From Polytrichum commune (Eukaryota > Streptophyta > Polytrichopsida > Polytrichales > Polytrichaceae), in assembly GCA_950295325.1 (NCBI GenBank), contig OX485805.1, forward strand, positions 50,926,758-50,990,757: 64,000 bases of DNA, read 5' to 3'. Shown one piece after another: positions 18,515 through 55,145 of the stretch. The first letter of the stretch is position 1, and the number at the start of each line of letters is the position of its first letter. The notes under the pieces were generated by a model, which saw only the letters and a list, made by a program, of their open reading frames with translations, had not been told where the DNA came from and did no database searches. Made by a program: the position numbers and the translations under genes.

Positions 18515-19621
18515 CAGGCCATAAATTTGACACCCTAGCCAAATTTCCAGGGGACACCCTGTCCCAAATTTTGGGTGTCCCAAGGACACCTTGCTCCAAT
18601 TTTTGGGTGTCCTCATAAATTTCTCTTAAATTTTTTTTTGTCAAAATAGGTACAATTTTGAAAAATATATAATATCATTTCAAAATCTCAATTAAAAATC
18701 AAAAAAATCACTACATATCATAACTTGCAATGCAAATCAAACCTACAAGCGGCGGCCTTTCATAGCACACCACTTTACCCATACTTGTTCAAAGTCAATG
18801 GCCTCTATGGGGATTTTTGCCATTGCAACTCTCATTTGTGCTTCCAAAGTCTCTAATACCAAACTACACCGTAAAGTAGATTTAATATGATTTTGAGTAG
18901 AAAATCCTCTCTCACAAGAAGCTGTACTAGCAGGAATTACAAGAACAGCTTGCCACAACTTTGTCATATGAGGATATCTTCCAACATAGTCCAAATTGGA
19001 AGAATAAACCATCCAAGCTTGGTGCATTTTAAGACCACCACATGAAATATGAAGTGTATCCAAAAAACCTCGAAGCTTTGATTTTAAACCACACTCATCA
19101 AAAAGATTCCCTCCATTAGTGCAGAAGTGGTCAATGAAACTCTGAAGCCATAAACGAGCATTTCGATGAAGAAGTGTCAAGTCTGTTGAAAAACAAACAG
19201 GGCTAAATAGCTTAGCTGCATTGAAGAGCTTCAAATCAGGATATCATTGCTGCAATGATTCTATCACCTTAACCACATAGGCCTGTGCAATCACCTTGCA
19301 CCCATGGAGGGTACCATCACCACCAAACTCAATTGCATGAGGCAATGGTGCATAATGCAATATATGTGAATGCACCACTCCTGTAGAGTCTTGAAAATGG
19401 ATCTCACCACCTCTAGAAATGTCCAAAAATTGTGCCACAAATTTGGTATCCGCTGATAGGCCCTACAAGTACAGGGGACACCCTGAATTTTTTTTGGGTG
19501 TAAAAAGGACACCCTTGTAGGATTTTTGGGTGTCCTCGGGGACACCCTGTTTGAGATTTGGGTGTCCTAGGACACTCTAGGAAGCAAAATACACCCCCCA
19601 GGGTGTCAATTTTATGCCCTG
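18515..19621 (-). mobile_element. hAT element, internally deleted, with perfect 8-bp target duplication
   Basis: The terminal inverted repeats are CAGGCCATAAATTTGACACC at the left and its near-complement GGTGTCAATTTTATGCCCTG at the right. The 8-bp direct duplication GGTACGTG is perfect (18507-18514 and 19622-19629). CAGGG-type ends and an 8-bp duplication are hAT hallmarks. The subterminal zones, about 18535-18620 and 19475-19605, are packed with GGACACCC / GGGTGTCC motifs in both orientations, as expected for transposase binding sites. The 1,107-bp interior keeps only the C-terminal part of a transposase. Confidence 0.93.
18743..19438 (-). pseudogene. hAT transposase C-terminal fragment (dimerisation domain)
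   Basis: The 5' part at 19438-19244 reads FLDISRGGEIHFQDSTGVV and runs in frame, through one TGA at about 19241-19243, into 19234-18743. That downstream part contains the hAT C-terminal dimerisation signature: MTKLWQAVLVIPASTASCER, GFSTQNHIKSTLRCSL and ETLEAQMRV. The DDE catalytic core and N-terminal zinc finger are missing, so it cannot be autonomous. The single internal stop is consistent with a CGA-to-TGA change (QQ-[R]-YPDLKLFNAA). Confidence 0.85.
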
Positions 19622-20332
19622 GGTACGTGGATAAGCCTCTCATAATTGCAGCCTCCAAATGGCCCCAACCCCACCTAAATAGATTTACTCATGAAAGCAA
19701 TGAATGGAGTTAGGTTACTTTCTTATTAATGGCCTTGGGGGCCCATTTGCATGCCACATGGGACATATTGGCCTTCGTTCCCAATGGCCTTGGCCCCAAG
19801 TCTAAACATGCCCTAAGACCATGCAAACCGTGGGAACAAAGCAAGCAACCAAACAAACTAGGGAATTTAAAATATAGGCTATAAAAATGGAATAAACAAG
19901 TACCTACCAACTAGAAAGAAATTTACAAATTCAAACAATGATCCTACCCTGGGGGTGGACTCTTCATTGGAGACCTAAATAACATGCGTGGGTCACTATG
20001 AATTTAAATCCCCTATATACAAGAAGTTTATAAAGAAAACAAATGTATACATATTAATGACATGTTAACAAATGGATTCATGTATTTATATCAAGTTTTT
20101 CAATTTAATATGATAAATGCCTCCACTACATATACAAAATATAAATCATGAATTGAATCAACCTATATTACATTGGAAAATCCACTTTTTCTTTCCAATG
20201 AGAAAGTCATTGAACACTTTTTCATCCATAGCATGCAACTCAACAATTGCATCAAACAAACAAAGACAAGAGCACAGTAACTTAGCCACAATTTGGAGCG
20301 TAGAACACAAGGAAGACCATGAGTGCTCCAAG

Positions 20333-23300
20333 GGGGAGTGCTATCTTATGAGCGATGAGTGATAACTTGTGAGTGGAGAGGAAGGTAAAACATTTGGTAA
20401 TAGGCCCACTAGTATCCTATAAAATGTGGTATTTTGGCCTAAATAATAACAATTTTAGGGTTCATCAATGAGAAGGGTGGGGAGGATAAATAATATGAAT
20501 AATCTCAATAAATGCCAAAATAATTAATTAAAGTCAACAAACACATACTTGGTACAAGAAATAGAAAACATATCTAATATTGTAGGTAGATTCCACATCC
20601 ATTCATTCAAATATATGCAAGCACAAATTCAAACAAGATTGCTCTTAGAAGGAAATGCATATTAAATCAACTTAAGTACTTGGACATAATTATTTAAGTA
20701 CTAAATTTTAGTCAATTTTTGTGATACCCATTCAATAATATCCAATGTGTAAGGCATTCAAGTCAAAGATACAAGACAATGTGTCACACAAATCACAATC
20801 CACATTTACTGGATGTTTTATTACAACCAAATAATTGCCACACTAAATCAAAAGCATGTGCACACTCACACAAAATAAGAGAAATCATATCTAGGAACTT
20901 CTCATGTACCCAAATCCATATTCAAATCATCTTCACTACTACCATTATGTTCTTGAGCCTCTACATCAACAAATAGCAAGACACAAAAATAATAATGTAT
21001 AGATTTAATTAGTCTTTGAGGTGTAATGGCAGTTGCCATCCGTGCCGCCTCATACTTGGCATAAATAGGAAGAACAAACTTGTGATATTACTTCATTTTC
21101 TTGCACAAAACATCCAAGAAGGTTAGACACAACCAAGAAGGACGAAATATTTTACAATAACGAACAAAAGTTTTAAACCGTGTGAACCAATAAACGTACG
21201 CACCCAATCGGGATTTCCTTTGAACTTTTCGAAAAGGCTCTTTGTCATCTTCTACGACTATGTTTGAGGATTGCAAGTGGCCAATCAAAGGAGTTGGCGT
21301 TGGATCGAGCAAAGGGGCCAATATGGTATTAAACATGACAGTGTCTTTCTCAAATGCAAGAAGGTGTCGACCACTATGCCAACAAGCATGAGTTGATGCG
21401 TTTGCAACACGCATGAACATTGATAGCGTAAGCAATTGGGCATACATGATGGAATTCAACCTAAATGCAACAAATCTTAGACCAAACAATTACTTTCACA
21501 TGTAGATGCGTAAGCATCAAGGACAACACCTCCCTGCTTAGTCAACACTTTGATTAGGAATTGGAGTTTGGGTCTCTCTCACGTAGACCTCTCTATGGGA
21601 TATTTCCATGCATTAGATGCGTATTTGTTGTAGTATGATTGAAGAAGATATCCAATGATTCCACCTCGGGTGCAGAAAGACCACCCAATTTGTTGAAAAT
21701 AAATTATGGACATGGCTCATTATGGAAGAATAATATGATCCGAAATCATCATGTCTGCAAGCATCACAATTCAATTAGTATGAAGCAACAAATTTAAACA
21801 TTTCATATGACAAAAAATAACAAGTGAGTATTTTAGAGACATTACATATTGTTAGTGTTGTAATCCTATGGGAGCATAAAGGCAACTCATTAATTACCCA
21901 CCAATCCTTTGCCAATGAAAAACCATATGATGCAACTTATGTTCTCACATCATCCCTCATTTTTTGAGCTTTGGAAGAAACAAAAGTAACGGAGCATTAT
22001 CAATCAAAATACCATCTACAAACCCAAACAATGCCTCTATGTCCTTAGGGTTGTGTTCATTCCATGGGGGAAGTGAATTTGGTGGAGATGACACATTTGG
22101 AAATGGCAGAACCTTTGGCGAGTCAATGATGATCAAATCAAATCCACCAAATCTGTAAATGTCAGATGTAACTTGAGTCTTCCAAGCATGACTAACTTAT
22201 GAACAAATATTACATAAACTGTGATTTAGAGTACTATGCAACACTTCATTGAACCTTGAATAAACTCCCAAAAACATGAAGTTAATTCAATAAAAAGTTT
22301 GACATGACCACTAACCTTTTTGACAAATTCAAAAGCCAAAATCAACATGGAGTTTTATGTTGCTCTATTCTCCAACATGTTGGAGATGGAGGAATTTTTC
22401 ACAAACGTTGAACCATTAGTGAATTTGGAAGCCACCTATTGAGATTGAATTATAGAAGAAAATGGTGTAAAAACAATACCATGCTAGGATGGACTTAGAG
22501 TTAGAGCAATGTCATCAAGGTGTAAAACATTTTTCCCTTGTCATTTTGGGTTGTACTGGGGGGAGGAGGTGATGATGGTGGAAGAGTGGGATGTATACTA
22601 GATGTTGCATGTTTAGCTTGTGTAGTGTCCATTTTTTTCATGCATTTGTTACCTTTCCCAGTCAACTCAGGTTCTTCCTCTGATTTTTCCTTCACTTCTT
22701 GTGAAGGCACCACAGACGATCTGAGAGCCTCTTCTTTAGATGAATGGAAGTTTGTTGGACACTCAATAAACCACGGACAAAAAACCAATGAGTCATGAGT
22801 CCACAACATAAGCTGCAAAGTTGAGAATATGCAAAGGTCACTAGCCTTGTCAACCAAGAATATAGGGTTGATGAAAGGGCTTACAATGGAATAACTTTGC
22901 AAGTATGCAACTCTCTTGTGAGGTACCTACATGACAAGAAATATCCATGTAGTCAACCAATGTGATATTATATGAATATAATTTAAGCAAAAGTTCATGA
23001 CATGAAATACACTTGTAGATCATACGTCTCATAGTTGATTCCCCTTTGGAACAATTCAATAGAATTGTAGATTTTGTGAAAGGTGTCTTCCCCTAGAAAA
23101 ATGGAATAAAAACCTTCACCCACTGGAGACATCGCCAACGTTCCACACAATCCGTAGGTTTGAGAACATTCTTTCAATTGACCATGCCCAACTTAGGCAG
23201 AATGCCACCAAACTCTTCAATGACAACCTCCTCCAACTAGGACGTCAAATACACTATAAGAAAACATCTATAAAAACAATGAAAACAAAAAAAGATTACA

Positions 23301-24600
23301 ACATATGAATTCCAAAGGGTGAAATCATTTATATTACCCATGCCTAGAAACTTGCTTTAACTAATTAAGCCTCAAGGTCAGTGTCCCTAAAATCAGGTGG
23401 TAGAAATCATAAGGATTCACGTGACATCAGAGTGGAGTTCCACCACATTATTTTCCTTTGTATTTGCCGTTCATGGGAGTAGTTGCAAGCTTCTGCAATT
23501 TCTATAGAGACATTTTCGGTTTAGGATTGTTGCTCCAGTGTATGTTTATCTGCAAACCAACAAGCCCGTTTTTATAAACAAGGAACTCGCTATATTTAAA
23601 CTATATTTCAAAGTATGTATAAGCTTACCTCATTAAGAAAATCCACTTCATTTTCCAAATCCGCTACCGCAAGGAGTTTGTCAAATTCCTTAGACCTCCA
23701 AGCTCTCACTTTTCTTCACCACATCATTCATAGCCTTCAATTCAAGAATTGGGGATCTCTTGTCTTTGTATTTACGTGATGCTTCCTCTAAAGCTGCCAC
23801 CACATCACGCTAATGACAATCCAACATGTGAATGTAAATCAATCCTTCAAAAAAAAAAGATTCAAATCACAAACATAAAAGAGGTTGTAGCCTCACCTTA
23901 TAAACAAACCTTGCAAATACATCCAAGATAAGAAGGTACCAAGTACTCCCTAAATGTTTTTTCTCACATCTTGCATAATCACTAGGTGTTAGAAGAGTCT
24001 TAAACTCATGGAGCTTCAAAACTCCAAAACTACAAATCCGATGTATCTTATGCACCAAGTTCATTCTAACATGGTCACTCTCCGTAAAAATGTATTTCAA
24101 GCAAACAACAAATTTGAACACACATGAAGCAAAACATGCAAATATATGTAAGTTAATACCACATGAATTGAAATCTAACATGTTAATGTCATTCATTACA
24201 TCAAGGAGAACAGTAGTGGCACTAGTTGGATCCAAGCATATACAAGCAACACTGAGGTGCCAATCTATCTCATTCCCGTGATATTGGTCAATGTGGCACC
24301 ATCATGCAGTGACCCTATGGTTGCCCTCCCCAACCATAACATATTTCCTTTGAAGATTATCAAATCCTTGTCCACTGAGAATGTTTTCTCAAAAATATCA
24401 TTTACTTACTACCAAAGTGGACTCCTAGTTTTCAACATCAATCTCCAGTATTTTCCTTACAAGCAATAATGGCTCCAAACAACAAATAGGAATCAAAAAA
24501 TCACAATTTGAGAAAGGGTACATCCGTGAGTTGAAGTTTGTCTTTTCTTTGACAAATCAAAATCTCCCAAAGTGTCATGTTCAATATTCAATTCCTCCCA
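20333..24600 (-). mobile_element. Second, decayed copy of the ParB/methyltransferase-carrying MULE (one end present)
   Basis: The left terminus at 20333 reads GGGGAGTGCTATCTTATGAG and is nearly identical to the inverted right terminus of the 43510-54935 element. Homology continues inward for about 150 bp (TTGGTAATAGG, CCAC.A.TATCCTATAA, TTTTGGCCTAAA, ATTTTAGGGTT). The ParB/methyltransferase pseudogene then follows with its 3' end toward this terminus, the same arrangement as in the other copy. I could not find the opposite terminus, the palindromes or the transposase, so the copy is truncated or eroded somewhere beyond 24.6 kb; that end coordinate is approximate. Confidence 0.8.
21230..24460 (-). 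pseudogene. Degraded ParB-like / beta-class methyltransferase-like gene (copy 1)
   Basis: Read on the - strand, this parallels the gene at 48439-54750. Around 24430-24180 lies a ParB-like core, RSPLW..NDIFEKTFSVD then KYVMVGEGNHRVTA, a stop, WCHID and TTVLLDVMNDINM; the counterpart is FFIWDGNHRFFAW..LLTAMYDIN. After an intron at the same position comes SDYARCEKKHLGSTWY (counterpart RSYKRCEEKSVETWY), then FDKLLAVADLENEVDFLNEV near 23650 (counterpart FTKQLAIADNNLTRAFLEEV). Near 22140 FDLIIIDSPKVLPF gives a motif IV-like D-S-P, near 21550 GGVVLDAYASTCES gives the SAM-binding loop, and near 21350 GRHLLAFEKDTVMF follows. In-frame stops, for example TGA right after GNHRVTA where the other copy has Trp, and several frameshifts show it is dead. 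Confidence 0.8.
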
Positions 24601-38942: not shown

Positions 38943-41900
38943 GGAGTGCACCCAAACCACAACCCCTTAATCTTCTCCTACTTAATAGGACCTTATCCTA
39001 TCCACTAAACCCTCATCCCATAAACCAACAAGAACATGTTCTAATTCAAACATTTAAATCCAAGGCCCTTCCCCTTGCCTCATCAAACACTACACACTTT
39101 AACCAAAACACTCCCTAATATCACTAAGCTTCTAATTAACCACACAAAATAGGCTTAAGGCCTAAAACATAAACCACACCAAGCCTCACTCTTTTAATAC
39201 TTTTGATTGTTTCAATAACACTCCAAATGCAATTCTAAATAAATTCTAAACATAAAACCAATATGAGCAACCATTTTGGGCTCATACCCAGGCATTGTTC
39301 ACCCCCTTAAATATTTTCTTCCACCTTATCTCAACTTCCCTACTTCCATACCTAACCACACTTGCAACAGTGGTTATTCTTCCTTAGAACCTTCTCACTG
39401 ATCCTTATCTAACCTTTGTTTTACTAACCCTTATCCCTTCTTATTTACTTCTACTTTAAGGCTACTTTAGGAAAGGTATCTTTTAACCAACGTTGTCATG
39501 CCCCCATTCTAAACTAGATTTCTTCCTTAGAATTTTCTAAAATGCTACTAGTTGGAGTTGTCATCTTCTAGGTCATTTGGTCGTGCAACTTCATCGATGA
39601 CGCTTGGTTGGTCACTTGGCTACTCAAGTTGATTCCACCGTGTGTTCCTTGACATCTAGTGGGATCGGTGAACAAACACGATTGGTGGTGGAAAGAAATA
39701 CTCTAGTAACCATGCCATAAGTGTTGGGTGAACGAGGAAATAACAGTAGTAGGCTCATGTGAGTAGACCCTCTAAGCCTATTCATCTGGATTTATAGGTC
39801 TATATACATGCCTACCTCCATAATTTTGGGCTACCCATAAACTATTTTGAAGTTAGCTTGATTTATTTTAAATATTTCCCGAAAATATTCTCTTTTGGAG
39901 AGGATGCCCAAAAAAAATTCATTTGGGGGCATCTTTTGAAAAGTGTTTCAATGCCGTCAAGAAAATGAAGAATATGCATTACTACATTTTTTGGCTTTAC
40001 TGTCCAACAAAAGGCGGTACACATCATTGATAACACATATGTGTATAGACATGGGTAATATATGCGTACATTTATCTAGGGTGCTTAGATGTATCATATG
40101 TTCTTCAAGCTGGATAGAGAGTTTTATTTTCACAAACAAATCTATAGTAGCTCCTAGATAAACATATGTCTTAAACACATTTTTACTATATAATAAAGCA
40201 TTTTGTTCTATAAAATTTAGTGAATGTCACAAAGGAAGACTAACATCTCAAACTACCCCCCCCCTTTGAATTTTACTTACTGAAATTGTTATGTGTTGAA
40301 AGTTTACTCAATGCAAATTAAACCCTAGGACCACTACTAAGGAGTCTTTGTAGAGAAGAAGTGCTCCAAGCATTGTTGTGGATAAACATACATTCTTCCT
40401 CATATGCATGCAATACTAATAAAAAAACAATGTATACATGCGTTGACATAAAGCATATGGTTGTATATTACCAATGTTGGAGTTGTGCATCTTTATGAAA
40501 GATGTGCATGAGCATCTTGAGTACTTGTTGACAGTCATGTGGTAATGCTTGCCAAATGTAGCATTGTCATCATTGTAAGCAACATAGATCATGGCATATG
40601 AGGGAGGAGTCAAATCCACCTTCTCCACAATCACCATTTTGAACGAATGGGCAACTGTCATGCACTAACAATGGGCCTTAGAAGGTGGACTGTAATGAAC
40701 GACCTTCCCATCTCGAGACATTGGGGGCTTTGAACTTGGACCTCTTTGCTAGACCAAAGGGTACACTCCAAACCGAGCGACTTTAAACATACCGTCTTCC
40801 AATTTAAAGGCCTCAAACAAGGTCAAATTTGTGCTGATTTGAATAGGCCACACATCAAGAACATGAAGGTTGGGCATTACACCATACTTTGTCTTGCCAC
40901 CCGCACACTCCTTCTAGTTACCATAACAAAACCAGAAGGTTTTAGGAACGTACCTCTTCATGTTCTTGGAATTGAAGATGCCATCATAACATGGCGCAAG
41001 GGTGGAAATGCCAATTTTTCGCCTCGGACGAGCACAAACCAAGCGACTATTTGTGAGCAATCGATACGCTGACAACATGTCCCCCCCCCCCCCACACACA
41101 CACACACATGGACACATGGCGTTCATGGGTTAGCTTGGGAGGTGTCGCATCCACTCAAGACCCTACTTCCATTCCGCCCTCACTCTGCACTTGCTCCGAT
41201 GGGTCCTTGGTTGTTGAAGAACCATTCCTGCTCGGAGACCGAGGTGAGTTAGATGTCTTACATTGTGAATTTGTATTCGGGAATTGAACTTTATTGCACC
41301 ACATCGACTTATGTACAATTTTCATTCCACGTGTGACACCATAATCCATTATCCATTGCAACCACTTTTATTATACAAAATACATGATAAAGTTTTGAAC
41401 CATTACCATAACTTGCAAAGTATAAATACTTATTCCATACGTGTTTTGCATAATAGGATATTGTTTGAACAACTTAAGTGTGGGGCATATTTAAAATAAA
41501 ATCATTGGGTGTTGGTGCTTATTTTGGAAGCGCTACCATATTAAATTAAATTGATTAGACCACAACCCATCAATTTGGAGGTGGTGTGGGATCCCAACAT
41601 TCTTGTTAATCTTGAATGGCAAGATTATAGGGGTATGTGGATATATAGCATTTTCCGAAGGTATATTTTTGGGGTCCCATATATCAGACCTCAATCGAAT
41701 GTCCAAACCAAAGTATGGGTTATGGAAAGAGGCAAGCCATAAGAATTTTGAAAATCGGTGCTAGGAGGTTGGGGGGTACATATATGGAAGGGGGGGGGGT
41801 CAAAGGGTTTGGATCATGGGCATATGCTCATGTGGTTGTGCCAAATGGTGTATGCCGAGGTCATTTTGGGCGCACAAATTAATTGGTCAACCATCGCATG

Positions 41901-43128: not shown

Positions 43129-43509
43129 GTAGTAGCACCACTTGAAGGGTTAACTTAATAATGCTCTTCATTTGGTAGACCACGTTTCGGATAATTTATT
43201 TTGGTTCCATGTGTCAAAGGTCCACTATGGCACTCCCTATCCATTCCCTCTTGATCCAATCTTCATTCAATCTTGGGCTAGATTGGTATTTGCATGCATC
43301 ACCTTTCACGGCACTTGTTCCCTATGGTGTGAGAGTTTGATAGACCAGGTTGAATCTTATGAGTTTGTTGGTACTTGCAAGGTTTGGTCTTACATGAGCA
43401 AAACACATAGGTAGATATGTCTAATGCGGTTGCTTCTCGTAATCGGACACCTATATTTGAGTGGTAAGTAGTTTGGTGGGACTTCAAGAACATATATTAG
43501 AAAGGCATG

Positions 43510-43570
43510 GAGGGAAGCTATCTTATGAGCGATGAGCAGTGAGCGGTGAGCGGTGAGCAGTAACACATGA
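43510..43570. repeat. Left terminal inverted repeat of the MULE
   Basis: Starts right after the target duplication. Contains GCTATCTTATGAGCGATGAG followed by repeated TGAGCGG/TGAGCAG units and AGTAAC. Confidence 0.85.
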
Positions 43571-43734
43571 GCAATGAGCAGTAACATATGAGCAATGATT
43601 CCAAATTTAGTAAAGACACACGGGTTTAGGGTACACAACCAAAATTTTGACAAATTAATTGCATATTTTTAATTGTAAATTGCCAATATTTTAAATGAAG
43701 CACAAGTGAAAGGGCCCTATTTCCATGGATCATT

Positions 43735-44500
43735 TAAAACACTTTCAATTCATTGCTGATTTTTATTATAATAATCCAAACCAATACATGTCATTTATTG
43801 ACATCCTTATACATGTAGTTACAACCAACACTTGCACAACTACTCACATTCCACAACACCATCAAGCTCAAGTAGGTGCATAACCTCATTATACGTACAT
43901 GTAGGTGCCATAATTGTGAGCCACTCAAACTGCTCACGGGTTGAATTAAGGCCCAAAATCTACAAATGAAAGGAAATTAGATATTAGAAATAGTCAATAT
44001 GTAGGTAACTACTAGGTTTTGAGACATCCGCCTGTGGATGCGAGTTGTGTAAGAGATTGGTATTAGGTCTGTATCAACCCGGGTTCGAATCCGGTTGGTT
44101 ACATTGACTGGTGCTATCCCAAATTGAGCTAGTGATAAAGCAGGAATAATCTATAGGCGGATACCAAGAAGACGTTACTACGCGGATGTGCGTAGAATCT
44201 TCTCAATTATTTTTTATTTTTAGAAACATTGTTATTATTTATCCATGTCAATCAATCAAACCGCTCACGGTTGGGTCGTAGTCTAAATAGAAATGAAGTT
44301 ACTGAATCATTTGAAATACTTTCAGTCCACTGCTAATTTTTATTATAATAATCCAAACCAAAACATGTCATATTTTGACATTCAAATATATGGTACTTAA
44401 TAGACCATTTGCAATACTACTCACACTCTACAATACCAGCAAGTTCAAGTAGTCGCATGACCTCGTTATAGGTATATGTAGGTGCATGAATGAACTTGTC
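43735..44500. repeat. Direct duplication of the transposase 3' end
   Basis: The block at about 43735-43935 and the block at about 44311-44500 share TTTTTATTATAATAATCCAA, CATGTCAT.TTGACAT, CAAG.TCAAGTAG and ACCTC.TTATA, which cover the last codons and 3' flank of the transposase. The SINE at 44020-44215 lies between them. Confidence 0.75.
44020..44215 (+). mobile_element. tRNA-derived SINE, copy A
   Basis: Contains a consensus Pol III B box inside GGGTTCGAATCCGG, preceded by GGATGCGAGTTGTGTAAGAG as the probable A-box region and followed by GACTGGTGCTATCCC and GAGCTAGTG. It ends in a T-rich tail. An inverted second copy lies at 48790-48990. Both are inside the MULE. Confidence 0.75.
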
Positions 44501-47500
44501 ACTCTCGTAATCCACCTTGCACAAAAATCTAAACACATAATAAAGATGTTTACAATACACCCATTTTCCTTTCTTTCCCGATGCATGAAAGGACATTTTC
44601 GTGAAATCCGGGCATGTGCAATGCGGGATGTCGCCAATTATGACATGGTAGGTGATATCATGCTTGGAGACAATGTTGATTATCATTCCAAAGCCCGGAT
44701 ATGGAATGGCAGTGACCCCAACCACATAGTAACCCTCCATGAGTCTGGCGCTCTCCCATTTGTTTTTGTGATCCGCTAGCGGTGTTGTTGGATTACGACG
44801 CACTGTCTTCCCAAACCTGAATGTAGGGTGGGCGTCCAGGTTTGGTGGCATAGAAAAATGCAAGCGAGGGATGGGGAGAGTTGCGATTGTTGAAAGCCTA
44901 CGACGAGGGGACAATGCCTCCCTCTGCTATAGTTGAAATCCAACATCTTCAAGTGCCAAAACCTCCTCTCGCGATAGATTGGTACCTATCTTCACCGGCC
45001 ACGTGTTGGGTACTATAGGCCAGTCCAATACATATTTCTTCTTACTGCCACTCACAGAACGTTTGATGTCGTCAGGGCAAAACCAAAATTCATACTCCAC
45101 ATTGTTGGGAGAGCGAAATTCCTTCCTGAGCCCTTTGTATGTTGGAGCAGGTATGCCATGTTTCCTAGTCCCGACTTTGGCATTGCACATAGTCCCTGTG
45201 ATGGCCTGCAGTGCCCAACATCGTTTGGCTGAGTTGGGTGGTAATCTTGCAATGTGCCACTTGGAAGCAAGATAATCTGTCTCTAACACGGATGTAGTAT
45301 GAGCCACACCATAAATTGCAGAACTCAACGATTCCTCTATGCGTTGACAAATTGCTCGGATGTTGGGACGAAGAATGGAATAGTTCACTTTGTCGGGTCG
45401 ATGAGAATCACAATCAGCACCCGGTGGTAGGTTGAATTTGCGTTTGGTGGAACCAAAGAGCTATGACCCTTCCAATGCACAATCTCTAGTGTTGACGTCT
45501 TCTGTCCCTCGATAAGACTTCATGGCATCGGCCAACATTTTTGGATCTCCACACCTGGCAGCCGCTTTGAGTTTCAAGGAGGCCGAATCAGGACCTTTAC
45601 CATCAGACCCCCCTTTCAACCATGTCCAGTAATTTGCAATTTGCATGAAGGCACGGATCATGTCGTCCATTGTAGCTTCATATAAACAAGTCATCTTGTT
45701 GCCGGACTGTTGGAGCCATTTGTTGTGTACAGTCTCTGCAAGGTTGCATGTTGGCATTTCCGCACGCTCTTCTATTGTCATATCCTATGAACAACACATA
45801 TATACAAGGATAGGAAAAACATAAGATATATTATATATCAGTGGCAAGATATTGAATGACAGTGAATAATGAAGTTTGATATGTACTTACAAGTAGCATA
45901 TGACCATTCCATTGTCTATAACGAAAGTGCCAAAATCCCAACCACTCTGAAAGGCCAAGGATGCCTTCTTCCGAGGCAGCTCCAGATGACAACCACCAAG
46001 AACGAATCACATGGTACTTAGTCTCAGCGTCGTCCATTGTTTTCGCGTCTTTGTAATCCTTGCATATTTGTTTGTATTGAAACTGCAAGGATGGTTTGAT
46101 ATACTTTTGGGTCATCTTATCCAAGCTTGCAGACCAATGGAAAAGACATGTACGCTCACGTGCAACCATGAGTAGACTTTGATCACCATCCCCGTAAATC
46201 GCCCTCACCGCATTCCAATTAGCTTGAGCACTATCAACCATGAACCCTTTGAAGTTTACGTTTGGTACACCATTTTCTGCCATGACAACATTCAAATTTT
46301 CCCAAAAGAGAATTTGTGTTGCACCATCTTCAGATTGCATGTCACAACACGCAAAAGTCAACACTTTACAGTATCGACTGTCGTACAGATGGCAAGCCAT
46401 GGTCGTCCAGTCCTTCAAACGTTTGATATGGTCAAACATAAACTATGAATTCTCCATGTCCCCACCGACTTGCATCCTCTTCACAAGTTCCACACCACTA
46501 CTTGGAAGGTCTACAGACATCTTGAAAACAAACACTTTGTCCTTTGACTGCCCTAGAAAGCGACTACCATGGACGAACTTGAAAGCAGAGTGGTCTTTGA
46601 GCGCCATAATACTATCCATAGTTCCCATTTTACTACGCAAAAAACGCTTTGATCCAAATACAAAGTTACGACAAGTCGGAGACGCAAGAGTGCTGAATTT
46701 GTCCATGACGACCTCTAGGGATGAACCAACCAAGTGATGGCCTTCGACATTTGCGGGAGATTTGAGAAGGTAATCGGCCAAGATTGTTTGCTTGCTGCCA
46801 TAATTATGGCTGAATTTTTGGCTGTGGGTGTTTTCAATACTTCATTTGCAACGCACTGGTATGCCATGTCCAATGACTCACATCATGTGCCATTGGCCAC
46901 AGGGTGATCATATACACCAATATAAATGCAAGTCTTGGACATTCCAACAGATGTGGAGTGAATGTATATGATTCGAGCATGACATAAAGCAATGCACACA
47001 GGTGTGGAACGACATACCTTACACTCGATAGTGGACCTAGTGGGAGGAACATTACCCACAGCAAATGGGAGACGAGTTGAACCGGCCCATTCGGTGTTGT
47101 TCCGGAGGCCCCCATTGTGATTCATGTAATCACAGTAGTCATTAGAACATTGGAGATGACCAGCACAAGTAGAACGCCGGAAGGACAATCCAAAATCATT
47201 TTGGATATTGATGGTTTTGGTGGTGCACCAAGGGTGACCATCGCACATTTTGTCCATGCCGTCCATTGAGCGGCCATACGTATTTGGAACTTTAAGTGTC
47301 ACAGGGGGTAAGAGAAACAAAACATCACCATTAAAAGAAGATGGTAAGTACTTGACATTACGAACATCTATACTATCAAAATCAATGGATGCAAGATCTG
47401 ACTTTGATCTTTTTCTTGACTTTGTGAGCTTCAAGGCATCAACTATAGTGAACCCTGTAGATGAAGGTGAAGGGTGTAGTGGAGGACGTTGAGAGGGTGA

Positions 47501-48025
47501 GATTAGGGGAACCACCCTCTTGTACATATGACCGCAAGGAGATTTGGATACATGTATAAGAAGTTGCAAAGGAGTAGAATGAACACCTTTAAATGGAAAC
47601 GGCGATGTGTTTGAAAGATCAATAGATGCACAACTGTCATCTTCTGAATCCGATAGCACAAACACACTATCATCAAGGGGTTCTACCTTAACATGTGCGG
47701 TAGAAGGAATTTGAACTGTGGATGTACCGGATTCGTTTGTCAATATGACAGTAGAAGCTTGCATCTGAGACTCAGAAAGACCTATCACCCTATATGAACC
47801 AAGTCCTAAGATCCACATAAAACCAACCTTTGTTCTGTTTTTTTGAACCAAAATCGTTTCATACACCTCTCCATCTGTAGAGTACATCTCCTGCTCTAAA
47901 TACATGGAGCCTATCTGGAGGTTGAATCTCAAACTAAGTAAATCCTCTGAAACACTCACATGACTATCATCTTGAAGTGGCAAAATGAAGGGAACAAAAG
48001 ATCCATGAGCTCTAATGGTAGCCAT
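44417..48025 (-). pseudogene. MULE transposase with SWIM zinc finger, interrupted
   Basis: Read on -, the ATG at 48025 opens 380 codons with an acidic/serine-rich middle (DSVFVLSDSEDDS), a basic KSRKRSKS patch and a Cys/His region (CAGHLQCSNDYC.., CKVC.., GVYDHP) resembling the WRKY-GCM1/FLYWCH-type fingers of MULE proteins. After TGA at 46883-46885 and a frameshift near 46787 comes the catalytic region: LTFACCDMQSEDGATQILFW (first Asp), FKGFMVDSAQANWNAVRAIY (second Asp) and ERTCLFHWSASL (C-x-x-H). An intron at about 45889-45787 is followed by further sequence and a SWIM finger C-T-C..(20)..C-K-H (HCTCPDFTKMSFH..VYCKHLYYVF) near the C-terminus, ending VECE. TAG codons interrupt it at 46443-46445, 45461-45463 and 44927-44929. 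The protein would be about 1,100 residues. It mobilised the element but this copy is inactive. Confidence 0.85.
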
Positions 48026-48438
48026 GGAAAATGGAAAGATGAATTAAACAAGACATCACAAAAATTTGGGTGAATGTTGTTTTTATATAGAGGTGTGTGA
48101 TGAAGTGAATGAAATTGAAAACGCGTGATACAATAATGGATGGTGATGAAAGCGTGTAATATCATAGCATCTAATAATATGGAAGTAAACATATCACAAT
48201 AATAGTTAGAGAATATTTACAAGCAAGATACACACAAAACAGTGAGGCTAGGGTGTCATAAACTTTTGGATTCTATAATAAAAATAGAAACAAAATGAAA
48301 GACGCGTTGAAATATTTCGTTCATTGGACGTCAATTGCAACATGAATGATCGTAATATACACCGGATTTATTTGGGATAGACACATTGGAAGAATAAATG
48401 ATAGTGGACTGATGGAGGACACATTATAGACACCAACG
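48026..48438. promoter_or_regulatory. Divergent intergenic region, presumed bidirectional promoter
   Basis: Only 413 bp separate the ATG of the - strand transposase (48025) from the ATG of the + strand exon at 48439. The stretch is AT-rich with no ORF. No specific promoter motif could be assigned, so the call rests on gene orientation. Confidence 0.45.
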
Positions 48439-48789
48439 ATGGTGGAGAATGTAGAGAGAACACCCGTGAGGCCGAAGAGAAGGCGTAGGAAAGCTTTGTA
48501 TTTTACTTCTGAGAAAAATAGGTTCGGACTGAGTGTAGGAAAGAGGAATGCAAACAAGGAAGGGAAAAGAAACATGTTGAATACGATAGTAGAAACTGTG
48601 AAAGCACTGGATTTTGATATGATGGAGGGTGATGAAGGTGCACATGCAGACGATCGTATATCGGAGTCGGAAATGAAGACGAGTTCAAAGAAGACAACAA
48701 ACAAAAAGGTAAGTCAGCTCAACGTAAATCAACGATATTGTTGGGCATATGTTTTAGTTTGTTCAAAGTAGTCAATTTAACAAAAACTT

Positions 48790-48990
48790 TATTTAGAAGG
48801 ATCTATGCACACTTGCGTAGGAAAGCCTTCTATGTATCCAACCTACTTAATTTCCTGCCTAACCACTAGCTCATTAGGGGATAGCACCAGTCAATGCAAC
48901 CAACTAGATTCGAACCCAAGTTGGAGTAGACCGAAACATCAATCTCTTTAGACAACTCGCATCCATAGGTGGATGTCTATACCATTTTTT
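48790..48990 (-). mobile_element. tRNA-derived SINE, copy B (inverted)
   Basis: The complement of this stretch shares with copy A the blocks GGATGCGAGTTGT, the B box GGGTTCGAATC, TTGGTTGCATTGACTGGTGC (GGTTACATTGACTGGTGC in A), TATCCC, GAGCTAGTG and GGATAC. It lies in the presumed first intron of the ParB-like gene. Confidence 0.75.
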
Positions 48991-49107
48991 CTTACACTTT
49001 TATACATTTGCCGATGGTATGACAGTAGTAAATCCTTGGAATATCGGCGGCCCACCCGAAAAACATTTCTGACAACGAATTAGAAAGCTTAAAAGATAGG
49101 AGGGAAA

Positions 49108-49655
49108 ACCCTGTGCGTTAACGCACAGGGTTGTTTAGGGTATCTAAGTCGCTCCCTAATACCCTCTGCGTTAACGCACGGGGTTGTTTACGCTGTGTAA
49201 GTTGCTCCCTAATACCCTATGCGTTAACGCACAGGGTGGTTTAGGGTTTGTGAGTCGCAACCTAATACCCTGTGCGTTAACGCACAAGGTTTTCCCTCAT
49301 AACTTTTAGGGTATCTAAGTCGCTCCCTAATACCCTGTGCGTTTACGCACATGATTGTTTAGGGTTACTAAATCGCTCTCCAATACCCTCTGCGTTAACG
49401 CACGGGGTTGTTTACGCTGTGTAAATCGCTCCCTAATACCCTGTGCGTTAACGCACAAGGTACTAGGGAGCGACTTAGATACCTTAAAAGTTAGGAGGAA
49501 AAACCCTGTGCGTTAACGCACAGGGTATGTACGAGCGACATAGAAAGTTAAAATTTAGGATGGAATACCCTGTGCGTTAATGCACAGGGTATTAGGGAGC
49601 GACTTAGATACCCTAAAAGTTACGAGGGAAAACCATGTGCGTTAACGCACAGGGT
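49108..49655. repeat. Array of ten 24-bp palindromes (core GTGCGTTAACGCAC), 53/65-bp periodicity
   Basis: The consensus is a perfect 24-bp dyad: ACC, then CTGTGCGTTAACGCACAG, then GGT. Starts are 49108, 49161, 49214, 49267, 49332, 49385, 49438, 49503, 49567 and 49632, giving spacings 53, 53, 53, 65, 53, 53, 65, 64 and 65. Sites 1 and 8 are perfect and the others carry one to a few changes, mostly in the outer bases, while GCGTTAACGC is intact in eight of ten. The spacers share TAGGGAGCGAC / GTCGCTCCCTAA, GGAGGGAAAA and TTGTTTAGGGT, and some switch orientation along the array. HpaI-type GTTAAC lies at each centre. Confidence 0.95.
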
Positions 49656-50159
49656 ATTAGGGAGCGACATAGAAGGTAAAAAGTTAGGAGGGAAAACCGG
49701 TATGTACTTGCGACTTAGAATGTCTAAAAGTAAAAGAAATAGCTATTGTATAAATTGAAAACGTCATGTAAAGTGTTGAAACTAAACATTTGTTCAAAAT
49801 GGGGTTAGAATGTAAAAGATGAGTAATATCCCTACTGAGATATTCATGTAGTATGTGACAGGAGCTAAAAAATGACCAAAAACAATGAAAAAAAATTTTG
49901 TGCCCAGAAATCCAAAATCTACGAGGTGGCCAAAAACAATGAAATAGATAGAAGAATGAGTAAAGAAAACGATATCAAACACAAAAAAAATATTAGAGAA
50001 AGTTGTAGCCACGGAGATTTAGATAATTTACAATATTTTTTTTATTTTTTTTGGACACGATTAGTATTATTTATAGATTTTACAAGTTTTGGCAAATCTA
50101 CCAATTCCATACTAATAAAATAAAATAAAATAAAAAACTTTTTCAAACCTTTGGCATAG

Positions 50160-50314
50160 ACCCTGTGCGTTAACGCACAGGGTCCACGCTAGCAACTTTC
50201 ATACATTTGTAGTCAGGTGCATAGACCCTGTGCGCCAACGCATAGGGTCTACGCCCGCAACTTTGGTAGGCCTCAAAGCTAGGCGCGTAGACCCTGTGCG
50301 TTAACGCACAGGGT
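50160..50314. repeat. Three further palindromes of the same family, 65-66 bp apart
   Basis: 24-bp sites at 50160-50183, 50225-50248 (with CGCCAACG at the centre) and 50291-50314. Here the dyad is longer: the last one extends to 30 bp (TAG on one side, CTA on the other). The spacer is CACGCTAGCAACTTT.. / ACGCCCGCAACTTT.., different from the first array, so the palindrome is conserved while the spacers are not. Confidence 0.93.
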
Positions 50315-50409
50315 CTACCCTAGTTGTTTAGGGTAAGCCGCTACCTTAATCACACAGTACTTAAACTACCAAAGTCACACCTTAAATTTTTTTTTTGTCA
50401 TTCTTCCTC

Positions 50410-50830
50410 TTGTTGGTGGTTCTTTGTTGTTGTGGTGGCTGCTGCTATTGCTGCTCTTCTTCTCTTGTTTTTGCTCATGTATTGCCACTACTTCTAGTGT
50501 TGTTCCTATTGGTTTAGGTGGTATTAGTTCAGATACTAATCTATTGTTCTTATTGTTGTTGTTTGTGCTGCTGCTGCTATTGGTGGTGTTGTTGTTGCTG
50601 TTGTTGCTGTTGGTGTTGGTGTTGCTGCTGGTGGTGTTTGTGTTGGTGTTGCTGATGTTGGTGTTGTTGCTGCTGCTGTTGGTGTTCCTGCTGTTGCTGG
50701 TGCTATTGGTGTTGTTGATCCTGTTCCTATTGTTGGAGCTGGTGTTGCTGTTTGTTTGGCTGGACGTGGTGCTATCCTGTTTTGTGCTCTTCTTCTACTG
50801 TTGGTGTTGGTATTGTTGTGGTTAGAGGTA
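50410..50830. repeat. GTT/GCTGTT-rich microsatellite before exon 2 of the ParB-like gene
   Basis: Long irregular run of GTTGTTGCTGTTGGT-type triplets. The apparent Leu/Val-rich ORF across it (50424-50825) is a translation of the repeat. Confidence 0.9.
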
Positions 50831-53800
50831 CTGTTTTTTCTCTACACCTTTAAGCATGTTCTCTTATGTAATCAAATACCTTTAGAAGATACTACATCAA
50901 GAATATTTCTAAGATTTATGTCATTGTTTGTATTTAGGACCAAACAATGGATGTGGAAAAATCAGTTTCTCTTTCCACGGATGATGATTCCACAAAAACC
51001 TCAACTCAAGATCGTCCATCCAAACAAGTTTATCATGATCAAGACATCTCATCAAACCTTCACAATAAGAATAAGAGAAAGAAAAAATTTACAAGAACCC
51101 CTCAATGATTTTGATTCCGATGAAGACAACGATGGTGATAATAAAACCTATCAACAGAAAGTATGGGAGCTTACGGACAAGCGAAAAGTTAATTCCACTT
51201 CAACAATTTTCTCAATCCGTGCTGGACCGAAATCTCGTTTGCGTGTACCCTTATGTCGCATGGTTCCGATGCCTATTGTGCGTCCTGCTTTGAAAGGCGA
51301 CATCACTAAATTGGAGGCTGATTTTTTCAATGGTTATCGTGATGGTGACCGTGTGTTTTATCTATCAGCTACCCACTCTAAGGGAAATTTTCAATTTGTG
51401 GATGACGAGGTTCGTGCATCTTGAAGCCCAAATTGGGCTCAAGCTAATGCGGTGTTTGAAACTGAATTAGATGCCGATCCTTCATTTACATCATACAAGA
51501 ACAAGATATTCTTCATATGGGATGGTAATCACAGATTTTTTGCTTGGAAAAGTTATATTGACCGCTTGCATACCGAAGATTACGAGCGTCATGTCTTTGT
51601 GAATTCCATCATTTTGGCGCCCGAGCTTGATGACATTCCAAGTTTGTTGACTGCTATGTACGACATCAACAAGTAATGCTCTTACTTCTTTATTTTCATT
51701 TATTTCTGGTTTGAATTTTGTTATTTGAATTATATTATCCTAAATCCATAAATTCAATATTTTTTCAGGTCAACAGAAAACTCTCACGTTTCTACCAATT
51801 TGGTGCATACTTTGTATCGGATGCAAAGTATTGGCACCATGCCTTTGACTTCTTTTAAAAAACAACTGGATCCTAGAAGTTATAAGCGATGTGAGGAGAA
51901 GTCCGTCGAAACTTGGTATTCTTTTACGCGGCCAATTTTTCTTGATTACATGTACACTGTAAGTTTTTCTAGCATTTCCTACTATGTTTTTAATATTTAT
52001 TTATCTTTCATTTACATCACATCTATATGTACTTATTAATTTTGGATTTTGTTTAATTTTTCAGCAAGAACTTGCCGAGGCTAGCGATATTGCTCTCAAC
52101 CTTTACAATGAAACCCATCCTCTTGAACGAACTTCAGAAGGAGTTTCTAAAGCAATGTCCGCAACTGTCAACAAAAAACGTGTAATGTTGTCTTCTAGTT
52201 TTACAAAACAACTAGCGATTGCTGACAACAACCTCACCCGTGCTTTTCTTGAAGAAGTTAAGCATCATTGGGGTTCATTTTCGGTGCCTGAAATGTTACA
52301 AGAGAAACTTCATCGTATTGCTGTTAGTAATGTGGATCCAGATGTCAAAGTCGGATGGCTCAAGCTTTGGAATGGCAATAGATTTGACAAAGATGCATTG
52401 CATTTCCCGAAATTACACCTCTCTGATTCTGCACTTGATGATTGGTTATCAAAGTCTACATATTGGGCACAGTTAGAGAAAACAACTATTGAAGAATTCA
52501 AAGTATTATTTCATCTCCTCTTCAATTGCCTGCAGATGTGCCTACTCTCTCCGAATATATCCAAACCTGGAAATTTGCGGCTTTCAATTCAATATTCTAT
52601 CGTGAATTCAAAAGCGGAAAAGTAAAAAAACACAACGTTTGGGATGAGCAACCGAATATTGATCTTGCTATGAAGCGTGTTCTATACAGGTACAACTTAC
52701 TTTTTACTATTTTTTGATATTTTTTCATTATATTTTACTTTTCATTTAATATTTGGCTCATAATATTTTTGTGTGTAGGTATTTCCGATATATTTTGATT
52801 CCGCACAAATGCGTTATAGGGGAACCTCGTTTTTTTCCAAATTGGCGTGACACTGGTGCGGAAGACTCATGCATGTTCACTACAGAGATTTGTTTGGATT
52901 GGTCGCTCCCACACTATGAGGATTGTGGTTGGTATCTTGATTGTCCTAAAGATGCATGTCCGTCAAGTGAGAAGACAATCCGTCAGATAAATGATGCCAA
53001 AAATGTAGATCCTCGTGATACTACAATTTTGCAAGCACAAATTGTGCAGCTTAAACTTAGAGAGCCAGAAGCAAAAGAGACAAAACGTCGTAAGAGAAAA
53101 CATGTTCCTGAAATTAAAATACAAGGTGAATCGGAAATTTCACAACATGAAGAATTGCTTGTTTTTTCCAATGATTTGGATAAGAATACACTTGGAGGCG
53201 AAAGTTCAAAATCCGGGTGCGATGTATTGGAATTTCATTACTCGAGCACCTATGACGCTATTCATCGTGCGCCAACGAATGTTTTGAGAAAATAGTTATT
53301 CATACTGAAGAACTTTCTCACGCTCTCTTTTGCTCGATCTACTGCTGTCAAGAACAAGTCTGAAGGGGTTGAAGTAGGCCCTCCTGAGTGGATACAATGG
53401 CGGGCATTTCTTGAAAATATAAGTAATCTTCATTTTGTATTTTCTGTAATGTTCTTACTGTCATTTGGATTTTATTTTGTGTCTTATATTGTGATATGTT
53501 GTGGTATTTCAGTTCAAAGACAATCGCAAATTTCATATCATGGGAAGTCCGACTCCATTTGCCGTTGACTTGGTTTTTCTGCAATTTCCGGACGGTCTTG
53601 ACTTCAACCTCTCCAATAGACCTGCTGAAATTCCTCTTTGGAATAAATATGACAATAACTGGATGGTTGCAACAATATCCTTGTGCAAGTCCATCTTGTC
53701 TGATGATGACGTCCTCATAGTATTTTCTGCTATCGATATGCAAACGAAGAAGGTTTTGAATTCAACCTTACACAACGGCAACATGAAAGTTTTTAGGACT

Positions 53801-54869
53801 TTTATTTGCCTCAATTCGTACATGGTGTTCAAGGATCCGGAGTCTCCAACGTACACCGTAAGTATAACACATCACAATTGTTTCTATTTAATTATTTTGG
53901 TGTTATTTGCATTGTATATAGTTTTAACACAATTTATATTTTTTTGTAGACTCCGGCATTTATAACTCATGTCTTGGTAAGGGATTTTACTACCACAAAA
54001 TCCACGAGACAATCAAACTCCACTTTTTTTGGCACTGGATTGAAAAGCAAAAACTTGCTTTTCAATTTTGTGGATGAAAAAAACATGCTTCTTCAAAAAT
54101 TGGGAAGATCTTGGAGGGGGCCATATAAAAAATCGCCGCATTTTTTTCAAGATCTTATTGAATTTTTTACACCATCGAATGGACGCGTTGTTGATTTGAC
54201 ATGTTCCACTGGAACTTCTATCCTAGCAACATGCGCATGTGGCAGACATCTTCTTGCATTTGAGGGTGATAATGACATGTTTGAGCACATATTGAAACCA
54301 CTTTTGGAAAAGGTTTTGAAAGAGGGGTCATCTAAGGAGAATATACAAGATCTCACAAAAGAAGATGATGACCTCTCGGATGAGGAGATGCTTGAATTTG
54401 AGTGTGAGTAAGTTTTGATACAATAAATTTTTATTCAATTCATTGGTTCATTTTTATTTCTTCACATTATTTACATGTTTCATCGATTTGATTTCAGGAA
54501 TACGATTGGAAAGAGGACATGTCTCCCGTTTTGGACACATAGACAATTCCTACGAAGTCCAAGCCGTAGCCCGCGTCTCCCATCATATGCGGAGAATGTT
54601 GCAATTGCAATGTTGAATATCGAAGATTCGGATCCAAATGAAGAATCTTGCTATAGTTCCAAAATCAATTCGCAATGCAAAGGTGCTCGAATATATATAG
54701 ATGATGAGGCAAAAGATAGTTTCATGTCTAGTGCTACTAGTGATGAATAAATATTTGGACTTCATGTTGTTTATCCTTCTCAACCCTCTTATTACTAAAA
54801 CCCTAAAATCATCATTTTTAAGGCCACAATTCCACGGTTATAGGATATTGGTGGCCCTATTACCAAAAT

Positions 54870-54935
54870 TTTCATCTTCCTCACTGCTCATAAGTTACCG
54901 CTCATCGCTCACCGCTCATAAGATAGCACTCCCCG
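54870..54935. repeat. Right terminal inverted repeat of the MULE
   Basis: GTTACCGCTCATCGCTCACC followed by GCTCATAAGATAGCACTCCCC, the inverse of the left end, immediately followed by the target duplication GAAAGGCATG. Confidence 0.88.
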
Positions 54936-55145
54936 AAAGGCATGTGTTCAAAAAGGCCGACTCCATGTTCAAATATTGATAATCATTCTGAACTCATTAG
55001 CCAACATAATTGGGGGGCATTTATGACCATTTAATGAACACAAGAATCTTCACTTTGATCAGGAATAAGATATTTATATGAGCTCTAGAAACTATGAAGA
55101 AATTGGCAACAACCTCAACTTGGATTACTAACCATCTCATACTAA

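Follow-up and report, generated by a model that had tools for sequence, protein, structure and literature searches.

Type-specific dyad-symmetric arrays accompany a methyltransferase-like accessory gene in a Mutator-like transposon family of Polytrichum commune

Why would a transposon carry a large second gene beside its transposase, and on what might the product of that gene act? The question is raised by an 11,425-bp Mutator-like element (MULE) at positions 43510-54934 of a 64,000-nucleotide stretch of Polytrichum commune DNA, which we call the window (C3:50926758-50990757 of a 407.8-Mb assembly in 64 contigs, seven of them large). Divergently from its transposase gene, this element carries an accessory gene whose product combines a ParB-like motif with a C-terminal domain that resembles N4/N6-methyltransferases. 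Here, we describe the family to which the element belongs. Our main new observation is that the inferred intron 1 of the accessory gene contains an array of dyad-symmetric sites whose sequence is specific to the type of accessory protein. The protein may therefore be one that recognizes its own transposon, a proposal that we weigh below against several others.

A transposon family and the arrays within it

MULEs are recognized by terminal inverted repeats (TIRs) and target-site duplications of 8 to 11 bp. In the window, the left TIR (GAGGGAAGCTATCTTATGAG.., with inner TGAGCRR repeats; 43510-43600) and the right TIR (ending in ..CTCATAAGATAGCACTCCCC; 54850-54934) have in common GCTATCTTATGAG and an inner TGAGCRR repeat, over 45 nt that are 82% complementary. 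The element is flanked by perfect 10-bp duplications, GAAAGGCATG, at 43500-43509 and 54935-54944 (10 of 10 positions matching). A first-pass annotation of the window had claimed related TIRs and a 10-bp duplication for an element at 43510-54935, with a transposase gene and a divergently transcribed accessory gene between them. All of this is borne out except the right boundary, which was off by one and lies at 54934.

The transposase gene, on the minus strand, consists of exon 1 (45891-48025), with a zinc-binding-like N-terminal region and, as judged by eye, a catalytic-like D..C(2)H region, and exon 2 (44417-45784), with a SWIM-like CTC..CKH motif. The accessory gene, on the plus strand, has about eight exons encoding roughly 1,200 amino acids, based on stop-to-stop frames in two related copies (A and E) and on splice sites placed by eye. 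Its basic, KRRRRKALYFTSEK-type exon 1 (48439-48708) is probably joined by a phase 0 splice, in the main type of the family, to exon 2 (50938-51672), which carries the ParB-like WDGNHRxxAW motif. The middle exons follow (51769-53440; no Pfam match in the part searched, 51769-52510), then two methyltransferase-like exons, one with DLVFLQFPDGL at the expected place of motif IV (53513-53857) and one with VVDLTCSTGTSIL at the motif I position, which is the best-supported part of the homology (53950-54407), and a last exon (54498-54750). Both genes are broken in the window copy: transposase exon 1 is interrupted and exon 2 contains in-frame stops, accessory exon 2 has one frameshift and one TGA, and the middle exons have a frameshift near 52510 and a TAG at 53293. 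Uninterrupted exon frames, which the first-pass annotation had proposed to look for, are present in copies A and E, where transposase exon 1 lies within a 742-aa open frame and the accessory exons are in open frames.

The family is abundant and large. A search of the genome with the terminus and with each protein, also proposed in that annotation, found the 20-mer of the right terminus at 255 sites with at most one mismatch (none for the reversed control) and at least 151, 150, and 151 matches to the ParB-like, transposase, and methyltransferase exons, respectively; these exon counts are lower bounds because about 150 candidates were scored per search. Ten elements, 11.2-15.2 kb long, were delimited, and they represent four types of accessory protein: the window copy (W) and A-E belong to the main type (type I), G and H to type II, and F and I to a type each, that of I being referred to here as the I-type. 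All ten start with GAGGGAAGCTA, end with AGCACTCCC, and are flanked by perfect 10-bp duplications, each different from the others. All ten also contain a transposase gene and a divergent accessory gene between their TIRs, though not all are intact. The perfect, private duplications and the open frames suggest that the family has been active recently.

The two genes are associated well beyond the delimited elements. Among the 100 termini listed, all exact and covering contigs C1-C5 into C6, a methyltransferase exon lies 0.5-1.2 kb inside 90, in the same orientation in 90 of 90; a ParB-like exon lies within 8 kb of 86, always convergent towards the terminus; and a transposase lies within 25 kb of 75, in the expected orientation in 74. 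All three exons are near 68 of these termini, and none is near 6. Viewed from the transposase, an accessory gene was listed upstream of 95 of the 150 listed genes at a distance of up to 25 kb, divergent in all 95; of the 55 remaining, G, H, and I were fetched, and each has a diverged accessory gene, broken in H. The first-pass annotation took the accessory gene for a stable component of the family, a view that would be hard to hold if the gene lay outside TIR-bounded elements or never beside the transposase. It has survived: of 105 distinct main-type accessory loci on C1-C5, for which the list of exact termini was taken as complete, 84 lie no more than 9 kb from a terminus on the expected side (0.14% expected by chance per locus), 78 have a listed divergent transposase within 25 kb, 68 have both, and 11 have neither. 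Among 12 accessory loci of other types on the same contigs, none has the exact main terminus and 2 have a listed transposase.

The arrays, of which the first-pass annotation makes no mention, sit between the two coding regions, in the inferred intron 1 of the accessory gene. In the window element, a first part (49108-49698, consensus ACCCTGTGCGTTAACGCACAGGGT) is followed by a second part with three more sites (50154-50318), about 1.1-2.3 kb from the transposase start; the corresponding distance in G is 2.2-3.4 kb. Type I elements have 5-11 copies each of CCCTGTGCGTTAACGCACAGGG at up to two mismatches, and A-E also contain AGTTTGGGTC-N4-GACCCAAACT, in which the arms are constant and the center is variable. 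The type II motif, in G and H, is GGGTGGCCGTTAACGGCCACCC, and F and locus L028 have GGCATCTCGGATCCGAGATGCC. Type III, a further group of accessory loci, has three subtype motifs: GGTTTCGG-GA-CCGAAACC, GTGTCTCGG-TC-CCGAGACAC, and GTGTCTCGG-CC-CCGACACAC. In raw counts, inverted repeats exceed those in first-order random sequence by 80 to 1.3 in E, though by only 9 to 3.0 in L026. As a separate observation, a CpG lies close to the center in both arms of six of the eight motifs, and the same holds for most of the AGTTTGGGTC-N4 sites but not for the I-type motif; host CG methylation could thus bear on recognition.

We examined 24 intron-1 regions, comprising the ten delimited elements and 14 upstream stretches. 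In all 24, the motif of the region's own type is present in at least two copies and that of no other type is found, with the exception of the near-identical motifs of subtypes IIIb and IIIc. The type I sequence TGTGCGTTAACGCACA has 694 exact sites in the genome and the type II core has 70, compared to none for either reversed control. All 50 of the distinct TGTGCGTTAACGCACA sites listed, which come from the first 9.4 Mb of C1, are confined to seven transposase-accessory intervals of divergent orientation, 94 kb in total, and 38 of the 50 type II sites on the list are positioned upstream of a transposase that was also listed.

A natural exchange separates the array from the transposase. Over 302 residues, the transposase of E is 93.4% identical to that of H, 88.4% to that of F, and 87.1% to that of I, compared to 42.2%, 47.6%, and 44.8% identity of the ParB-like exon of E to those of G, F, and I; across the ParB-like part, H and G are 92.7% identical in DNA. 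At the DNA level, the identity of G and H to type I is 89-94% across the transposase and 71-83% from there until type I exon 1 ends. This likeness stops just past type I exon 1 and returns in the terminal region after the last exon. In the main type, the basic exon 1 adjoins the transposase start; a similar exon occupies the same place in type II, F, and the I-type, and both G and H also keep a relic of type I exon 1. Beside a type I-like transposase, G and H thus carry a type II accessory gene together with a type II array. The simplest reading is an exchange of the accessory half by recombination within intron 1 and close to the right end. The type of array follows that of the accessory gene and not that of the transposase.

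The transposase and the surroundings of the element

We call the family Mutator-like tentatively, based on its TIRs with a perfect 10-bp duplication (10 of 10 delimited elements), the SWIM-like CxC..CxH motif, and the string FMADSAQANW..RTCLFHW, which by eye conforms to the D..C(2)H pattern. The annotation's designation of a SWIM-type MULE is thus less well supported than it claimed, the superfamily not being confirmed by profiles. SWIM matches were below the cut-off (E 0.1 in copy E, and 0.97), and the SWIM-bearing exon of copy I (L017:2918-4291, minus strand) matched DUF6208 better than SWIM, at E 0.0043, still below the cut-off. PF10551 was not matched in Pfam scans of the transposase pieces, none of its 142 listed genomic places (150 of 271 candidates scored) was within 5 kb of a listed transposase, and HHalign of the transposase against six PF10551 loci gave less than 1%. 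These negative results weigh little because the profiles are shallow.

Several other features lie within or near the element. A 184-bp direct duplication (81% identity) occurs at the 3' end of the transposase gene, at 43726-43908 and 44303-44485; cross-matches of G and H to E suggest that they have it too. Two inverted repeat copies at 44022-44215 and 48783-48978 are 77% identical and contain, by eye, a tRNA B-box-like GGTTCGAATCC; they may be SINEs that inserted into the element. G (L013:2032-2244) and the type III locus J (L048:1417-1629) have in common an identical, unrelated 71-aa frame (LVSRLVQMDGDNQSDSRGKC..), which probably belongs to another nested transposon. Elsewhere in the window, the C-terminal dimerization region of a hAT-family transposase lies at 18743-19243 (minus strand); hairpin-like pairs of 32 bp, at 18552-18612 and 19507-19568, are possibly associated with it. 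Host content is plant-like, with a Self-incomp_S1 gene above its Pfam cut-off and an MMS19-like gene below its own.

A second copy in the window had been described as sharing the terminus and cargo of the first. What is present is a partial, degenerate relative at 20333-24430 (minus strand), with a terminus and accessory exons most like those of the I-type and F, and so of another protein type; no second TIR was recognizable in it and no transposase was identified. An end at 40361, proposed from the 10-mer GTGCTCCAAG (at 20323 and 40361), was not accepted because no TIR stands at 40360.

The accessory protein and its possible role

Purifying selection acts on the accessory gene. In pooled comparisons of A-E, its exons 2 and 4 have pN/pS ratios of 0.20 and 0.18, its middle part 0.31, and its two methyltransferase exons 0.14 and 0.34, a range that indicates that the gene is maintained; the transposase exons have ratios of 0.41 and 0.14. 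For arrays that lie beside their own gene, are type-specific, consist of dyads, and move together with the gene, the best explanation in our view is a self-targeting, dimeric DNA-binding protein. We propose that the protein, translated from a transcript spliced across intron 1, would bind the dyad sites in that intron, probably as a dimer, and that such self-recognition would maintain expression of the element by averting or lifting silencing by the host, in the way that VANC proteins act on the VANDAL elements of Arabidopsis. Anti-silencing is placed first because the VANDAL elements show what such a system can do. We hold this reading with moderate confidence. A more specific version, to which we give somewhat less credence, is that, in this plant family of transposons, a prokaryote-derived ParB/methyltransferase protein and its type-specific, parS-like palindrome arrays form a self/non-self cassette for anti-silencing, which elements can exchange as a specificity module and which is both independent of VANC and convergent with it.

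The C-terminal domain bears on what kind of activity should be expected. Aligned with five phage ParB-methyltransferases, it gave an HHalign probability of 92.3 (E 5.6e-7) over the last 66 columns, compared to 0.54 for a reversed template and 0.14 for an unrelated transposase. PF01555 was matched in three of five members (best E 3.7e-4), at scores, where seen, of 17.2 and 17.6 bits, below the cut-off of 26.7, and single members matched phrog_67 with a best E of 5.8e-7. No relatives of the region were found in IMG/VR. The domain is thus supported as an N4/N6-methyltransferase relative, as the first-pass annotation had claimed, albeit one without DPPY. The pattern [DNS]PP[YFW] occurs in all five phage proteins and nowhere in five accessory rows. 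At the place of motif IV, the phage proteins have DPPY or SPPY (ADLVFTDPPYGV and the like), in contrast to QFPDG, DYPDG, or DLPEG in all ten elements (VDLVFLQFPDGL, VDLIVADYPDGL, or LDLIIADLPEGL and close variants), in a register set by eye because the HHalign alignment does not cover motif IV. Loss of DPPY makes loss of methyl transfer likely and suggests binding rather than methylation.

For the same reason, we lowered from first choice a role that is compatible with self-targeting, namely that of an active methyltransferase (N6-adenine or N4-cytosine) whose mark on its own array or element protects or identifies the element. The phage homology and the constraint on the methyltransferase exons would both be expected of an enzyme, palindromy, which is common in methylase sites, is found in several array cores, and self-modification is what the authors of a study in Ectocarpus proposed (PMC12477816). 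Given the altered motif IV and a motif I that reads TCSTG, TASTG, or YASTG, we consider active methylation unlikely, though the most credible of the alternatives.

The ParB-like region is known by its motif. GNHR and a W four residues further on are invariant in seven diverse members; the position immediately preceding [DE]GNHR is occupied by W in most types, with C or Y instead in type III. Likeness to ParB was judged by eye. "ParB-like" is accordingly a motif-level label, and we keep it because of the motif, the matching domain order in phages, where a ParB-methyltransferase probe matched 526 records, and the Ectocarpus report. One member matched DUF1015, which we take to be a ParB-like family, over this stretch at E 0.17, far below the cut-off. 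A single-sequence AF2 model was uninformative (pLDDT 40) and was not used for a fold search. Relatives of the region were found in neither IMG/VR nor GTDB genomes, the one phage match being nonsignificant (E 0.9). In a separate observation, genome matches to PF02195 (ParB_N) over the cut-off, four candidates in all, are confined to the minor contigs C10, C12, and C23 and may reflect bacterial contamination.

A number of results weigh against a self-targeting binder of ParB and anti-silencing kind. The ParB fold that the first-pass annotation assigned is not significantly supported: Pfam scans of the region found no ParB family, PDB profile searches found no ParB chain, HHalign, tried with whole, box II, and insertion-free versions, gave no significant support (0.1% against six phage ParB domains), and neither the PF02195 genome search nor AF2 helped. 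The protein is not shown to be a VANC protein, because the 399-aa and 268-aa accessory parts scanned gave no DUF1985 match at E up to 1. The presence of a region's own motif is circular, since motifs were read from the same regions; the absence of the other types' motifs is not. Sites are not independent of one another given tandem amplification, and the independent parts of the array evidence are the location of sites across the genome and the swap. Most type III sites are imperfect as dyads, and the I-type motif, CAAGCTTGATATTCAAGCTTG, is present in two copies only. Twelve of the 50 listed type II sites are near no listed transposase. The consensus unit contains an inverted repeat in 31 of 70 intron-1 arrays compared to 4 of 14 arrays elsewhere, a moderate enrichment, and two of those four lie in the same kind of intron. 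Finally, element ends sought at the type III loci J, K, and M were not found, so no type III element was delimited. At J and M, the divergent position is occupied by a transposase that is more diverged. At K, one of the three extended loci, no transposase was seen and no frame on the minus strand reached 200 aa over 15.5 kb. The piece fetched for J showed no methyltransferase exons.

The remaining explanations fare less well. The position of the array between two divergent genes would suit a conventional transcriptional autoregulator, or an enhancer-binding factor for a divergent promoter, with no epigenetic role; this does not by itself explain the swap-like diversification, and we regard it as somewhat less probable than active methylation. 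The protein might instead act in transposition, through synapsis of the ends, choice of target, or partition-like spreading from a parS-like loading site. Since parS sites are symmetric, the arrayed dyads are parS-like in that respect, and the ParB-like motif fits as well, but the array is internal rather than terminal, ParB homology is lacking by profile, and types I and II have nearly the same TIRs yet different proteins, which leaves a role in transposition improbable. Equally doubtful is that the arrays are neutral satellite expansions, or hairpin-forming triggers of silencing, unrelated to the protein. That 39 of 70 intron-1 tandem arrays have no dyad in the unit is in keeping with such an origin, but dyads of different sequence stand in the same place in every type examined and moved with the accessory gene in G and H. 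MULEs do capture host genes, as in Pack-MULEs, but we reject the idea that the accessory gene is passively captured cargo as very improbable, because the gene is constant (10 of 10 delimited elements, across four types), consistently oriented (95 of 95 pairs), and under purifying selection.

Comparison with known systems

Genes of this kind are not unprecedented, because ParB-like/methyltransferase proteins are known from algal transposons. The first-pass annotation knew of no accessory gene with a ParB fold in plant MULEs; for transposons at large, this fails on Sola1-1_Ec32 of the brown alga Ectocarpus, a 21.5-kb Sola1 element with a 1,104-aa gene for a ParB-like and N4/N6-methyltransferase protein opposite its transposase (PMC12477816). 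The same study cites relatives in green and red algae and raises the possibility that these proteins bind the transposon that encodes them and modify it (PMC12477816). Sola1-1_Ec32 and the present family are alike in having the gene on the strand opposite the transposase, at similar length (1,104 compared to about 1,200 aa), and in the methyltransferase domain, with a ParB-like region that here is recognized at the motif level. They differ in that the present family has a plant-like host, a transposase of a SWIM-bearing, MULE-like kind instead of Sola, no DPPY, and type-specific dyad arrays; the Ectocarpus account, in the portions available to us, mentions no arrays and names no target (PMC12477816). 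Transposon-borne DNA methyltransferases have also been described in retrotransposons of dinoflagellates and charophytes, where, as far as the accessible text goes, they are C5-cytosine enzymes (PMC5890265). In a limited search of titles and abstracts, neither a ParB-like/methyltransferase gene in a Mutator-type element or with cognate arrays nor a swap of this kind was reported.

Phage ParB-methyltransferases, such as those of Morganella phage Mecenats66 and Acidithiobacillus phage AcaML1, have the same order of a ParB-like region followed by an N4/N6-methyltransferase, and their methyltransferase domain is homologous to the one described here. The five phage proteins compared are 397-510 aa long and have DPPY or SPPY, unlike the accessory proteins, which have about 500 residues between the two regions and no DPPY. 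As in ParB-parS systems, candidate dyad-symmetric sites stand near the gene, in all of the intron-1 regions examined.

The closest functional parallel may be VANC, the anti-silencing protein of the VANDAL elements, which are MULEs of Arabidopsis; it binds short motifs repeated in noncoding regions, leading to loss of DNA methylation (PMC5735166; PMC10398659). Between related VANDAL families, the motifs and VANC are strongly different and the transposase is much more conserved (PMC5735166). Both systems involve the second gene of a Mutator-type element, with noncoding tandem motifs, and in both the motif and protein diverge while the transposase is more conserved; the arrays described here are likewise noncoding, tandem, type-specific, and found with their protein. 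VANC itself has DUF1985/DUF287 and short motifs (YAGTATTAY), whereas the accessory protein has a methyltransferase-like domain, gave no DUF1985 match in those parts that were scanned, and is accompanied by dyads that are long. Each protein type in the present family is paired with a multicopy candidate cognate site, and the swap provides a natural experiment, so that the suggestion of self-binding is directly testable. If it is correct, the family would represent a second, unrelated solution to sequence-specific anti-silencing, which could also be useful as a tool for epigenome editing.

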